A DNA stretch of 54,289 bases, from NCBI GenBank assembly GCA_021804655.1, contig JAJZHE010000002.1, positions 1 to 54,289 on the forward strand. Reading direction: 5' to 3'. The translations under genes were made by a program, and so were the position numbers. The first letter of the stretch is position 1. Each line of letters begins with the position of its first letter. Under the pieces are notes generated by a model. It saw nothing but the letters and a program-made list of their open reading frames with translations. It was not told where the DNA came from and ran no database searches. This document shows, one piece after another, positions 12,265 to 17,156 of the stretch. Origin of the DNA: Acidobacteriota bacterium. Its GTDB lineage: Bacteria > Acidobacteriota > Terriglobia > Terriglobales > Acidobacteriaceae.

Positions 12265-12290
12265 TGTGACAGTGATCACACCTGATGTGA
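12265..12290. promoter_or_regulatory. CRP-type operator TGTGACAGTGATCACA with an additional half-site (TGTGA at 12286-12290)
   Basis: Exact TGTGA-N6-TCACA at 12265-12280, followed by a third TGTGA half-site in CCTGATGTGACA. Confidence 0.7.
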
Positions 12291-12469: not shown

Positions 12470-13789
12470 ATGAGGTGGTCACTCAAAGAATGGATCGTAC
12501 TGGCGGCACTGCTTTTCGCCTTGCCGTATGCACAGGCCGTCCCCAGCTTTGCCCGTCAGACGGGACTTTCCTGCAATGTCTGCCACACCAATCCACCGGA
12601 GCTGACTCCCTTCGGACGCAAGTTCAAGCTGCAGGGCTACGTCCTCACCGATATGACGGCAAAGGACAAGATTGGCAACACACGCGACCTGCTGCTTTCC
12701 AAATACATTCCGCTCTCCGCGATGATCGAGCTTTCCAATACCTCAATCCAGTCCACACAGCCCGGATCGCAGAATAACTCCGCTGGATTTCCGCAGCAGC
12801 TCAGCCTCTTTCTCGCAGGAGCCTTCGCCTCACACTTTGGCGGACTGGCGCAGATCACCTACACCCATGCGGACGATCACTTCGGCATGGACAATACCGA
12901 CCTGCGCTATGCCAACCAGGGAAAACTCGCGGGCAAGGACTGGCAATACGGCATCACAGCCAATAACAATCCTGGCGTCGAAGATATCTGGAACAGCACG
13001 CCTACCTGGGGGTTTCCGTGGATATCCACCGGCGCCGGGGTCGGCTCGCTGGCTTCGCCCGTGATTCAGAATCTGGGTCAGGACGTTGCCGGGGTCGGCG
13101 GCTATGGCATGTGGGATGACCACCTTTACGGCGATCTTTCCATCTATCGCTCTGAACATGCCGGCGCTCCTGTTCCGGTGACTGGAACGGGACAGGCGTA
13201 CAACATCAGCGGCGTTGCTCCCTATTGGCGTATGGCCTGGCAGCAGAACTTCGGCAACAACTACCTGGAGGTCGGCAGCTATGGAATGTATATGAAGTCA
13301 TTCCCCAATGCGATCTCCGGCCCGGAGGACGAGTATCTCGATCCATCGTTTGACTTCCAGTACGAGCGGCCTTTTGGCGCCAATCTGCTGGATGCGCACG
13401 GCACCTGGATTCACGAGAGTTCGACGCTGAATGCAACCTTCGCCTCCGGAGGTGCAAGCACCGCGGATAATCATCTGAATACGCTGAAGCTGGACAGCAC
13501 CTTCCACTGGCGCAGCCGCTATGCTCTGACCGGCGCGCTCTTTCAGACGACGGGAAACTCCGATGCGCTGCTCTACGCGCCAGCCGCGGTCACGGGCAGC
13601 AACAATGGCAATCCCGACACGGCCGGTTACATTGCCCAGTTCAGTTACTGGCCGGTGCAGAATATCGACCTCACGGCGGCCTATACGGGCTATACCAAAT
13701 TCAACGGCGCCAGCAGCAACTATGACGGAGCCAATCGCAATGCTTCCGATAACAACACAGTTTACGTTGCACTCTGGCTCAATTTCTAA
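12470..13789 (+). CDS. Monoheme cytochrome-porin fusion, Cyc2-like outer-membrane protein
   Basis: Signal peptide MRWSLKEWIVLAALLFALPYAQA, then VPSFARQTGLSCNVCHTNPPELTPFGRKFKLQGYVL with a single CXXCH, then a long aromatic/Gly-rich beta-barrel-like region ending in VALWLNF. Confidence 0.7.
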   Translation: MRWSLKEWIVLAALLFALPYAQAVPSFARQTGLSCNVCHTNPPELTPFGRKFKLQGYVLTDMTAKDKIGNTRDLLLSKYIPLSAMIELSNTSIQSTQPGSQNNSAGFPQQLSLFLAGAFASHFGGLAQITYTHADDHFGMDNTDLRYANQGKLAGKDWQYGITANNNPGVEDIWNSTPTWGFPWISTGAGVGSLASPVIQNLGQDVAGVGGYGMWDDHLYGDLSIYRSEHAGAPVPVTGTGQAYNISGVAPYWRMAWQQNFGNNYLEVGSYGMYMKSFPNAISGPEDEYLDPSFDFQYERPFGANLLDAHGTWIHESSTLNATFASGGASTADNHLNTLKLDSTFHWRSRYALTGALFQTTGNSDALLYAPAAVTGSNNGNPDTAGYIAQFSYWPVQNIDLTAAYTGYTKFNGASSNYDGANRNASDNNTVYVALWLNF

Positions 13790-13816: not shown

Positions 13817-14374
13817 ATGCAGGAGAACGCAAACATCCCGGTTTCATCCTCGACAAGCGAGGTGATTGTCATCAACCGTCGTTCATTCATGGGCGCGCTG
13901 CTGGGCATCGGCACTGCGGCCATGGGAGCGTTGCTGGCCGTACCGGTACTGCGGTATGTGCTGTACCCGCTCTATGCTCGCGCCACAGGCTCGGGCTGGT
14001 CAGAGGTGGGCGCAGTCAGCGATTTTGCCACAGCGCAGGCCCCCATCCGCAAGACCATCACCTTCACGCAGCGCGATGGCTGGCGCGAGGTTGTCAGTTC
14101 ACAATCGGTCTATGTGCATCGCGAAGAAAACGGTGATCTGCGCGTTCTCTCGGCCATTTGTCCGCACCTGGGATGCAGCGTCTCCTGGCAGCAGGGGCAG
14201 GATGAGTTTGTCTGCCCTTGCCACGGAGGCCGCTTCAAGCCCAACGGAACGCACGTCTATGGACCGCCGCCGCGCGGGATGGATGAGCTGCCCTCACGCG
14301 TGGATAATGGAAAACTTCAGGTGCACTTTGAGTACTTCCGCTCCAATGTGCCGAACAAGGAAAGACTGAGCTAG
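13817..14374 (+). CDS. Rieske 2Fe-2S protein (bc-complex iron-sulfur subunit)
   Basis: N-terminal TM with RRSFMGALLGIGTAAMG; CPHLGCSV ... CPCHGGRF cluster-binding motifs; RBS AAGGAGG upstream. Confidence 0.95.
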   Translation: MQENANIPVSSSTSEVIVINRRSFMGALLGIGTAAMGALLAVPVLRYVLYPLYARATGSGWSEVGAVSDFATAQAPIRKTITFTQRDGWREVVSSQSVYVHREENGDLRVLSAICPHLGCSVSWQQGQDEFVCPCHGGRFKPNGTHVYGPPPRGMDELPSRVDNGKLQVHFEYFRSNVPNKERLS

Positions 14375-14402: not shown

Positions 14403-17081
14403 GTGGAAAACGAAAAAAAGACCAGTAATTCCTCCGAGTCTTCCGGTTCCGCACACGGAAAACTCTTCCGCTGGCTCGATCGTCGAGCCGACCTCGACAA
14501 GCTGATGAAGGAGTCCTTGAACGAACCGGTGCCGGGCGGCGCACGACTTGCCTATGTCTTCGGTTCCGGACTGCTTTTCATCTTCATCTCGCAGATCATC
14601 ACCGGCATCTGCCTCGCGCTGTACTATGTGCCCTCGGCAGAGACCGCGCACACCAGCGTGGCCTATATCACCAAGCAGGTTGCCGCCGGTGCATTCCTGC
14701 GCAGCCTTCACTACTACGGCTCCAGCGCGATGATTATCGTGCTGGTCCTTCATTTTCTCCAGACATTTCTTTACGGTTCTTACAAGGGCCGTCGCGAGTT
14801 GCTCTGGCTCTCCGGAGCCACGCTCTCGCTTTTTGTTCTGGGCATGGGCTTCACCGGCTATCTGCTGCCGTGGGATCAGAAAGCCTACTTCGCCACCGCG
14901 GTGGGAACCAATATCGTCGGTGAAGTGCCGCTGATTGGCAACTGGCTCACCCGGCTGCTGCGCGGCGGAGACACCATCGGCACGCTGACGCTCTCCCGCT
15001 TTTACGTCGCACATGTTTTCCTGATTCCCGGCATGATTTTTCTCTTCATCGCCTCGCATATTTTTCTTTTCCGCAAGGCCGGTGCCGCTGGTCCCATGAA
15101 CGAAGACCCGGTTGAGCCGAAGATGCCAGCCGAGTACTTTTATCCGAAACAGGTCATCATGGACATGGCCTTTTCGCTGCTGCTGATGGTTGGCCTCGGC
15201 TTCCTGGCTTACTTCCATCCAGTTGGACTGGGACCGATTGCAAATCCGGCGGATACGCACTTCCTGCCTCGTCCGGAGTGGTATTACCTGCCCATGTTCG
15301 AGTGGCTCAAGTTCTGGGAGGGGCCAAAGGTCGTCTTTGCCGTTGTGGTCGTCCCCGGTTTGCTTGCCGCCGGATTTTTCCTGTTGCCGTTTCTCGATCG
15401 CGGCTTTGAGCGCAGACCCTGGCGCAGGCCGATCCCGTTGCTTGCCGTCGCCATCGTGATGGTCGGCATTGTATATCTGGGCATGCGCAGCGAGATGGAC
15501 GATCGCAGCGACCCCACCACTGCCGCGCAGCTCAAGCTGCAGGAGCAGCAGGAAAAGGCGTACTCCGCAGCCCCATTTCAGCCCTATATCGAGTCTCCCG
15601 GAGGCACAGGCCCATCCGCTTTGCCTAGTGGACCGGTCAGCCCGCTGGTTGCCCAGGGACGCGGCATCTTCCAGGAGCATGGCTGCTCCGGCTGTCACGG
15701 AGATGTGGGTCTGGGCGGTGTCGTCGGACCCAATTTGACCGGAATCACGACCAAATTTCCGGAAGCGCAACTGATCGATCTGCTGCATCATCCGAATGCG
15801 CAGATGCGCGCCGGCAACATGCCTTCCGTGGATATCGCTCCCGATCAGATGAAGGCGCTGCTGGCCTATCTGGCCGTTATCGGAACTCCGTCAGCCAATG
15901 TTCAGGCATCGTACATCACCAATGCTGCGCAAGCCCCATCCTCATCTGGACAGGGAACGAACGGCGGTTCGGCCGCCTCAATGGCTGGACCCGCGGCTGC
16001 GTCATCTGAGGCAGCTCCAGCCAGTCCGTCCACTGAAGCGGTAGCCGGTGCTCAGGTATATCTGGAGCATGGCTGCATCGGATGCCACGGTGCAAACGGC
16101 GTCGGCGGTCGCGCTCCTGCGTTGGCTCCGCTGGTTGCATCGCTCGGAGACGTGCAGTTGATCGCGCTCGTTCAGCACCCCAATGCCAAAATGACCAAAG
16201 GCGGCATGCCTCCGTTCTTTGGCAGCCCGGACCAGTTGCATCAGCTTGTGGCTTATCTCCGCTCGCTGAAGGCTCCTTCGCCTGGAGCAGCTCCGCAGCC
16301 TGCGCCGCAGCAGCAATCGATTGTGCGCTATCCGGACATGGGCACATCCTCTGGCGCTGCTTCGCCACAGACAAATGCTGAGGCAACTGCCCAGACGAAG
16401 CCGGCAGCGATGAGCAGCACAACGGGTGCGGCCATGCCCGGTCAGCAATACTTCCAGGATCTTGGTTGCGTGGCCTGTCATGGGCCAAGTGGTCAGGGAA
16501 CGCGTTTTGCGCCCTCGCTGATTGGCGTTGGCGAGAAGTTTCCCGGCGATAAACTGCCATATCTGCTGCACCACATGACGCCGAAGATGCGCGCCGCCGG
16601 GATGCCGCAGATCATGTTGCCGGAGGCGCAATTCAACGAGCTGATCGCCTATGTACGCAGCCTGAAACCGGTCACGACTACGACGGCCATGGCAGCAGCA
16701 GGCTCATCCACGTCGGCTGCTCCTTCCGCTTCGTTGCAGCAAGGAAATCCAGGAACAGTGTCAGCCAACAATGCTCCTCCCGCGGCACCCAAATGGCAGG
16801 TGTCGCAACTGTCGCCGCTGGCGCTGCAAGGAAGAAAAATCTTCGAACGGAATCGTTGCGAAACCTGCCACGGCATCGATGGTTTGCATGGAACGGTTGC
16901 TGCGCCACCGCTTGCTGGAACGGCATCGCTGCTGCCTGCTGACAGTCTGGAGAGTCTGCTGCGGCACCACACCACGCGCATGCAGCAGGGAGGCATGCCG
17001 CTCACCAATATGAACCCGCCGGACATGCGTGCCCTGGTCACGTATATCCGCGCCTTGCCGGCAAGCGAGGCAGCGCAATAA
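14403..17081 (+). CDS. Cytochrome b (full-length) fused to four tandem cytochrome c domains
   Basis: Heme-ligand His pairs (SLHYYGSSAMIIVLVLH; VAHVFLIPGMIFLFIASH), PEWY motif, then CSGCH (15684), CIGCH (16074), CVACH (16467), CETCH (16857), each followed by a GMP/NMP Met-ligand-like motif. Confidence 0.95.
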   Translation: MENEKKTSNSSESSGSAHGKLFRWLDRRADLDKLMKESLNEPVPGGARLAYVFGSGLLFIFISQIITGICLALYYVPSAETAHTSVAYITKQVAAGAFLRSLHYYGSSAMIIVLVLHFLQTFLYGSYKGRRELLWLSGATLSLFVLGMGFTGYLLPWDQKAYFATAVGTNIVGEVPLIGNWLTRLLRGGDTIGTLTLSRFYVAHVFLIPGMIFLFIASHIFLFRKAGAAGPMNEDPVEPKMPAEYFYPKQVIMDMAFSLLLMVGLGFLAYFHPVGLGPIANPADTHFLPRPEWYYLPMFEWLKFWEGPKVVFAVVVVPGLLAAGFFLLPFLDRGFERRPWRRPIPLLAVAIVMVGIVYLGMRSEMDDRSDPTTAAQLKLQEQQEKAYSAAPFQPYIESPGGTGPSALPSGPVSPLVAQGRGIFQEHGCSGCHGDVGLGGVVGPNLTGITTKFPEAQLIDLLHHPNAQMRAGNMPSVDIAPDQMKALLAYLAVIGTPSANVQASYITNAAQAPSSSGQGTNGGSAASMAGPAAASSEAAPASPSTEAVAGAQVYLEHGCIGCHGANGVGGRAPALAPLVASLGDVQLIALVQHPNAKMTKGGMPPFFGSPDQLHQLVAYLRSLKAPSPGAAPQPAPQQQSIVRYPDMGTSSGAASPQTNAEATAQTKPAAMSSTTGAAMPGQQYFQDLGCVACHGPSGQGTRFAPSLIGVGEKFPGDKLPYLLHHMTPKMRAAGMPQIMLPEAQFNELIAYVRSLKPVTTTTAMAAAGSSTSAAPSASLQQGNPGTVSANNAPPAAPKWQVSQLSPLALQGRKIFERNRCETCHGIDGLHGTVAAPPLAGTASLLPADSLESLLRHHTTRMQQGGMPLTNMNPPDMRALVTYIRALPASEAAQ

Positions 17082-17120
17082 ACCGGACGCATTCTGAGCC
17101 GAGCGCTCGGATTGAACCCG

Positions 17121-17156
17121 CTGGCGGAAGAGTTTGCGCTCTTCCGCCAGTTTTTT
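17121..17156 (+). terminator. Intrinsic terminator of the cytochrome operon
   Basis: Perfect 12-bp stem CTGGCGGAAGAG-TTTGCG-CTCTTCCGCCAG followed by TTTTTT. Confidence 0.92.

Follow-up and report, generated by a model that had tools for sequence, protein, structure and literature searches.

By what route do electrons travel through the periplasm that separates the inner membrane from the outer-membrane cytochrome Cyc2, a step on which little is known except in a few model iron oxidisers? A locus of an Acidobacteriota bacterium, contained in the 54,289-nucleotide stretch of DNA analysed here (hereafter, the window), raises this question with a candidate carrier that is physically attached to its electron-transfer partner and encoded in the same operon. 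A first-pass annotation of this DNA described a cytochrome b fused to four cytochrome c domains. That general picture was confirmed as far as the architecture of the fusion is concerned, but it had overlooked the adjoining Cyc2-family and Rieske genes, which are decisive for the likely role. Judged from sequence, these neighbours point to an envelope-spanning extracellular-electron system and not to a general bc complex. We consider it probable (about 0.7) that the three genes together form a trans-envelope redox conduit between the quinone pool and Cyc2, operating in either direction.

A single intact gene for a cytochrome b with four c domains

The open reading frame (ORF) at 14403-17081 starts with GTG and runs without an internal stop as a single intact gene, with its b and c parts sharing one continuous frame of 892 residues, the arrangement that defines a b-c fusion. 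The gene and its parts are as follows.

14403..17081, + strand: cytochrome b - (cytochrome c)4 fusion protein, 892 aa (ORF, Pfam, His/PEWY alignment)
14463..15584, + strand: cytochrome b part, residues 21-394 (bis-His H103/H117 and H204/H219, PEWY)
15642..15902, + strand: c domain 1, CSGCH 428, Met473 (Pfam, predicted model, motif)
15903..16031, + strand: disordered linker 1, 43 aa (pLDDT under 50 at 505-539; 20% identity among homologues)
16032..16280, + strand: c domain 2, CIGCH 558, Met602 (Pfam, predicted model, motif)
16281..16433, + strand: disordered linker 2, 51 aa (pLDDT under 50 at 626-676)
16434..16673, + strand: c domain 3, CVACH 689, Met734 (Pfam, predicted model, motif)
16674..16799, + strand: disordered linker 3, 42 aa (pLDDT under 50 at 758-796)
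16800..17066, + strand: c domain 4, CETCH 819, Met865 (Pfam, predicted model, motif)

The initial description of a complete cytochrome b with His offsets of 14 and 15 residues and a PEWY motif was upheld both by Pfam (Cytochrome_B, 6e-48; Cytochrom_B_C, 7e-7; together with Cytochrom_C, 5.5e-39, in four stretches) and by an alignment of 19 homologues, across which neither H103/H117 (14 residues apart) nor H204/H219 (15 residues apart) varies. The Qo motif, PEWY, occupies residues 291-294 and is replaced by PDWY in the f2 relatives L042 and L043. As in bc complexes, four heme-ligating His residues lie in helices B and D, and the halves corresponding to b6 and subunit IV are both contained in one ORF rather than split as in cytochrome b6f. 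A heme cn of the b6f kind was considered and ruled out, as an Ile aligns with Cys35 of b6. The possibility that a frameshift or an assembly error had joined separate genes, named in the annotation as one thing that would refute its reading, is negligible, the same architecture being intact in dozens of independent assemblies, including that of Acidipila rosea DSM 103428.

Each of the four c domains combines a CXXCH motif with a Met-Pro ligand candidate, one per domain (428/473, 558/602, 689/734 and 819/865), exactly as had been claimed. The resulting count of putative c hemes goes beyond the one or two of b-c fusions, with four CXXCH motifs here and five in L093, L098, L100 and L103. Across homologues, Met-Pro is found in 175 of 184 c domains, and the other nine retain the Met. 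The linkers, earlier described as flexible and rich in Pro, Ala, Ser and Gln, indeed consist to 79% of P/A/S/T/G/Q (an Ala/Pro/Ser-type composition) and are predicted to be disordered. In the predicted model of the fusion, the four c domains fold (pLDDT mostly 63-88) and the linkers remain disordered (pLDDT 24-35 in most blocks); the full model, built from only 19 sequences, has a pTM of 0.28 with a poor cytochrome b part, probably as a consequence of this small number of sequences, and therefore no heme distances were taken from it. Identity among homologues amounts to 20% in the linkers vs. 53-65% in the c domains, while the heme-to-heme spacing is steady (127±5, 136±7 and 125±6 aa). Such a preservation of spacing alongside drifting linker sequence is as expected if the length of a leash matters and its sequence does not.

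Cyc2-family and Rieske genes in the same operon

The fusion is the third and last of a row of genes transcribed in the same direction, preceded by a Cyc2-family gene and a Rieske gene and followed, 38 bases after its stop codon, by a terminator-like hairpin.

12470..13789, + strand: Cyc2-family outer-membrane cytochrome-porin, 439 aa from ATG 12470 (motif, porin model, C-terminal Phe)
13817..14374, + strand: Rieske [2Fe-2S] subunit (Pfam Rieske 4e-13; CPHLGC...CPCHG)
17120..17151, + strand: intrinsic-terminator-like hairpin that closes the operon (14-pair stem, then T run)

Published criteria for the identification of Cyc2 (PMC8406198) comprise the motif AXPXFAR[Q/K][T/Y] a short distance ahead of a single CXXCH, a PXL motif behind this CXXCH, and at least 365 aa in length. 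The 439-residue product of the first gene (whose longest ORF begins at GTG 12440) contains AVPSFARQT-x3-CNVCH-x3-PEL, in which the stretch AVPSFARQTGLSCNVCH provides the part leading to the single CXXCH and CH-TNP-PEL the part that follows; among 39 homologues, the strict N-terminal motif recurs in 34 and PXL in all 39. An AlphaFold2 model of this protein (pLDDT 71.5) shows a porin barrel of about 16 strands, for which OmpC/OmpF are the best structural matches in the PDB (Z about 20); no match was obtained among Pfam or NCBIfam models and no sequence relative in the PDB. Going by the published criteria and the predicted barrel, the product of 12470-13789 is classified as a Cyc2-family cytochrome-porin.

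The second gene supplies the Rieske [2Fe-2S] subunit that belongs to a bc complex. In nearly all multi-domain homologous loci it immediately precedes the cytochrome b gene, and the order Cyc2-Rieske-fusion is kept in almost all of them. No separate gene for a cytochrome c1 or f is present in the operon, the c domains being fused to b instead, and there are no oxidase genes within it.

Distribution of the fusion and of its companion genes

A search for relatives revealed the complete fusion in several members of the same genus and in one further genus of the family. A scan of 84,980 species genomes yielded 80 loci with cytochromes b 59-97% identical; the complete frames, including the window copy, comprise 36 with four c domains, 4 with five, 1 with two and 28 with one, so that four is the number in 36/41 complete multi-domain loci. 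Nearly all multi-domain loci come from Acidobacteriota MAGs; one comes from the isolate A. rosea DSM 103428 (L070), whose operon is intact. Open frames of at least 865 aa occur in 8 of the 299 Terriglobia genomes sampled, all of them in the window's own family. The architecture is thus uncommon. Loci L093, L098, L100 and L103 constitute a clade with five c domains. The one-domain version was also seen in L105, L109, L113, L115, L125 and L130, in records named Kapabacterium, Bacteroidota, Ignavibacteria and Spartobacteria, a spread of phylum names that suggests either transfer between phyla or binning errors.

One-domain and multi-domain loci differ in the genes that accompany them. A separate monoheme cytochrome c gene lies upstream in 22 of 25 one-domain loci (those with enough upstream sequence to be counted) vs. 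0 of 49 multi-domain loci (Fisher p 6e-16), and Cyc2 lies directly upstream in 47/49 multi-domain loci (Fisher p 1e-9 for the contrast with one-domain loci), with p values that ignore kinship and with only 2-3 independent transitions on the tree, too few for significance. In L098, one of the two exceptions, Cyc2 is located just downstream instead. In the cytochrome b tree, all multi-domain proteins fall within one supported set of 52 rows. The two-domain L091 and the one-domain L099 group with the four-domain L097 (support 99); both lack an operon Cyc2, their genomes holding only a remote Cyc2-like gene, and the contrasts that they provide for Cyc2 run in the same direction as the overall count. 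The proposal that a tethered wire replaces both c1 and a soluble carrier is thus given genomic support by the lack of a c1 gene in the operon and of a separate c gene in multi-domain loci, but the independent evolutionary events behind this pattern are few, and electron transfer along the chain is putative.

Many one-domain loci have a Cyc2 or a decaheme gene in their neighbourhood, so that a single Rieske/b family may have two alternative partners for electron transfer at the outer membrane. Ten-heme cytochrome genes were noted near single-c relatives of the cytochrome b in L044 (4942-5995), L045 (3608-4604), L107, L109, L118 and L126.

Age of the c domain duplications

The annotation had recommended distinguishing recent from old duplication by comparing the four domains, and a domain tree pointed to mostly old events with some recent copies. 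In this tree of 110 single c domains, based on an alignment of only 92 columns that leaves the deep forks weak, domains cluster mostly by position across species: D1 with D1, D3 of four-domain proteins with D4 of five-domain proteins, and D4 of four with D5 of five. The 13 groups need 15 changes, compared to a minimum of 12 and to 79 in shuffles. The extra domain of five-domain proteins groups with D2 (in L100, D3 is nearly identical to D2), and in L094, D3 is a recent copy of the protein's own D2. Overall, the c chain goes back mainly to old duplications, with some recent turnover now and then, and is made up of domains of distinct identity.

These separate old lineages rule out recent tandem duplication as the general origin, with L094 and L100 as exceptions. 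A derivation of domains 2-4 from a neighbouring soluble cytochrome gene was not supported either, the soluble c proteins being placed on a long branch (in a tree of few columns). A conserved pI gradient along the chain was rejected as a sign of direction, since the five-domain clade shows the reverse of the gradient seen in the four-domain clade.

The same data bear on the idea that the extra domains are a redox capacitor, or a product of copy-number drift, with no specific reach or direction. The recent copies in L094 and L100 indicate that domain number is somewhat free; however, D1-D4 each form an old lineage of their own that is conserved throughout the clade, and four domains prevail among complete multi-domain loci (36/41), leaving this explanation very unlikely.

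Other respiratory and carbon-fixation genes

The same genome contains, at locus L049, a conventional bc-caa3 operon with a CuA-c subunit II, oxidase subunits I and III, a diheme cytochrome c, a Rieske protein and a cytochrome b-single c fusion, all of them named by sequence features except subunit I, which was assigned by a family model. A heme-copper oxidase subunit I was found in 14/14 genomes tested. Beside the bc-caa3 operon (L049, 4561-6042), a 493-aa ORF looks by eye like another outer-membrane beta-barrel.

An oxidase in every genome checked speaks for a reading in which the c chain serves oxygen respiration as an extended anchored cytochrome c, with electrons passing from quinol via Rieske/b and c1-c4 to caa3 and with Cyc2 as a neighbour that has a separate input, as do the membrane-anchored cytochromes c that link bc1 to oxidases in other bacteria (PMC7876108). 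Nevertheless, we regard this role as improbable, since a complete bc-caa3 operon, including a diheme c, is already present in the genome and the fusion is accompanied by Cyc2 and not by oxidase genes.

RuBisCO was found in none of the 13 genomes searched, with control genomes giving the expected outcome; the absence from the window's own MAG, which is 87% complete, would be weak if taken alone.

A candidate conduit and its direction

Several lines of evidence support the reading of the three genes as a conduit between the quinone pool and Cyc2: (i) the compact Cyc2-Rieske-fusion row ending in a terminator-like hairpin; (ii) the presence of Cyc2 upstream (47/49) combined with the lack of a separate monoheme c (0/49); (iii) the lack of an operon Cyc2 in L091 and L099, which are nested among multi-domain lineages; (iv) the occurrence of this cytochrome b family near decaheme genes in other Acidobacteriota; (v) folded c domains, disordered linkers and a kept heme spacing; and (vi) a separate bc-caa3 operon that covers the oxygen branch. 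In such a conduit, cytochrome b and Rieske would, by virtue of their family membership, exchange electrons with the inner-membrane quinone pool, and c domain 1 would take the place of cytochrome c1. Domains 2-4, on their 42-51-residue linkers, may act as a leashed carrier chain that swings across the periplasm and docks on the periplasmic side of Cyc2, so that no diffusing carrier would be needed. The least certain step is the net flow, most likely outward, which would lead from an organic substrate to quinol, Rieske/b, c1-c4, Cyc2 and extracellular Fe(III), with proton translocation via a Q cycle. What the analysis establishes directly is the gene content, the motifs, the predicted folds, their conservation and the lack of a separate carrier gene in the operon; that the domains carry heme, that a complex forms, that the chain docks on Cyc2 and which way the electrons run are inferred.

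A net outward flow to extracellular Fe(III) is our tentative preference, held at somewhat below even odds; a little more tentative still is the complete proposal that a single polypeptide carries electrons from the quinone pool to the outer-membrane Cyc2, enabling carrier-free extracellular iron respiration in acidophilic Acidobacteria. Outward flow is favoured because the operon has no oxidase branch, because no RuBisCO was detected in these organisms, and because cultured relatives reduce Fe(III) and a ferric reductase role of Cyc2 has been put forward. Indeed, Fe(III) reduction was described for cultured Acidobacterium (A. capsulatum) and Acidicapsa strains, and the ferric reductase role was proposed for At. 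ferrooxidans (PMC8790237). On the other hand, those Cyc2 proteins that have been assayed act as oxidases of Fe(II), and what the divergent Cluster 3 Cyc2 do is uncertain (PMC8406198), both of which count against outward flow. The dependence of the observed co-occurrence on 2-3 independent transitions also counts against it.

The same conduit could run in reverse, with Cyc2 oxidising extracellular Fe(II), the c chain conducting electrons inward and Rieske/b reducing quinone uphill by using proton-motive force. Assays have shown Cyc2 of three lineages to oxidise Fe(II) (PMC8406198), and At. ferrooxidans, which has two bc1 complexes, runs Fe(II) electrons uphill through bc1 (PMC8790237); this genome, too, has a second bc complex, in its bc-caa3 operon. 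However, the operon has no counterpart to the oxidase branch through which Fe(II) oxidisers pass most of their electrons (cox genes in the case of the rus operon; PMC10654088), RuBisCO was not found in 13 genomes, and the cultured relatives are described as Fe(III) reducers. We consider inward flow less likely than outward flow, though it is the main rival.

The variation of domain number among close relatives makes the question testable by shortening the chain. If true, the conduit would provide a candidate mechanism by which Acidobacteria cycle iron in peat and acid mine drainage.

Comparison with known systems

Periplasmic cytochromes of the Geobacter GSU1996 type contain 12 hemes in triheme c7-type domains and are soluble and not fused to cytochrome b; the present chain resembles them in its repeated cytochrome units, as a putative molecular wire. 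A closer parallel in subunit composition, the Kuenenia pair Kuste3096-3097, has a cytochrome b fused to a diheme c subunit (PMC12954380) and shares with our locus the presence of b and a c1-equivalent in one chain as well as a Rieske partner; our locus differs in its four or five monoheme domains, each folded separately, in the long disordered linkers that join them and in the Cyc2 gene of its operon. The neighbouring cytochrome-porin resembles Cyc2 of At. ferrooxidans and Mariprofundus and Cyt572 of Leptospirillum in its defining motif, single heme, length and predicted porin barrel. In the rus operon, cyc2 is combined with soluble carriers and oxidase genes (PMC10654088), whereas here it is combined with a Rieske/cytochrome b pair. 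The petI/petII bc1 complexes of At. ferrooxidans (PMC8790237, PMC10654088) offer a likeness in the form of a second bc complex linked to iron metabolism; in that organism, however, c1 and CycA (a c4 carrier) are each a protein of their own, while here the carriers are covalently attached.

Among the nearest relatives, the single-c loci L104-L133 (Acidobacteriota, Ignavibacteriota and others) have a cytochrome b about 59-66% identical with a fused c, many of them with Cyc2 or decaheme genes nearby, but they differ in having one c domain plus a separate monoheme cytochrome gene (in 22/25 loci). Overall, a cytochrome b fused to a diheme c is known already, as is Cyc2, and for the combination of four or five tethered monoheme domains with a Cyc2 operon, no description was found in the open-access literature searched (most subscription journals being outside the scope of this search).

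A palindrome upstream of cyc2 and the composition of the window

The region upstream of the operon contains one further element.

12265..12280, no strand: CRP/FNR-type palindrome TGTGACAGTGATCACA (perfect TGTGA-N6-TCACA, upstream of operon)

This is the sole perfect match to TGTGA-N6-TCACA in the window, a motif that resembles the sites of CRP/FNR-family regulators. A perfect palindrome is found upstream of cyc2 in 23 other homologous loci, where 23/23 fit TGTGAYNNNNRTCACA, and its density reaches 0.84/kb upstream of cyc2 vs. 0.011/kb elsewhere in the same 1.1 Mb (about 75-fold). No copy lies around the four bc-caa3 regions that were examined (L049-L051 and L053). Further copies were noticed immediately preceding the decaheme gene of L107 and, in L098, upstream of the Rieske gene. 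As to the window at large, the GC skew, near zero before, rises abruptly at about 28 kb to about 0.2-0.27 and remains high until shortly before the window end (28000-54289).
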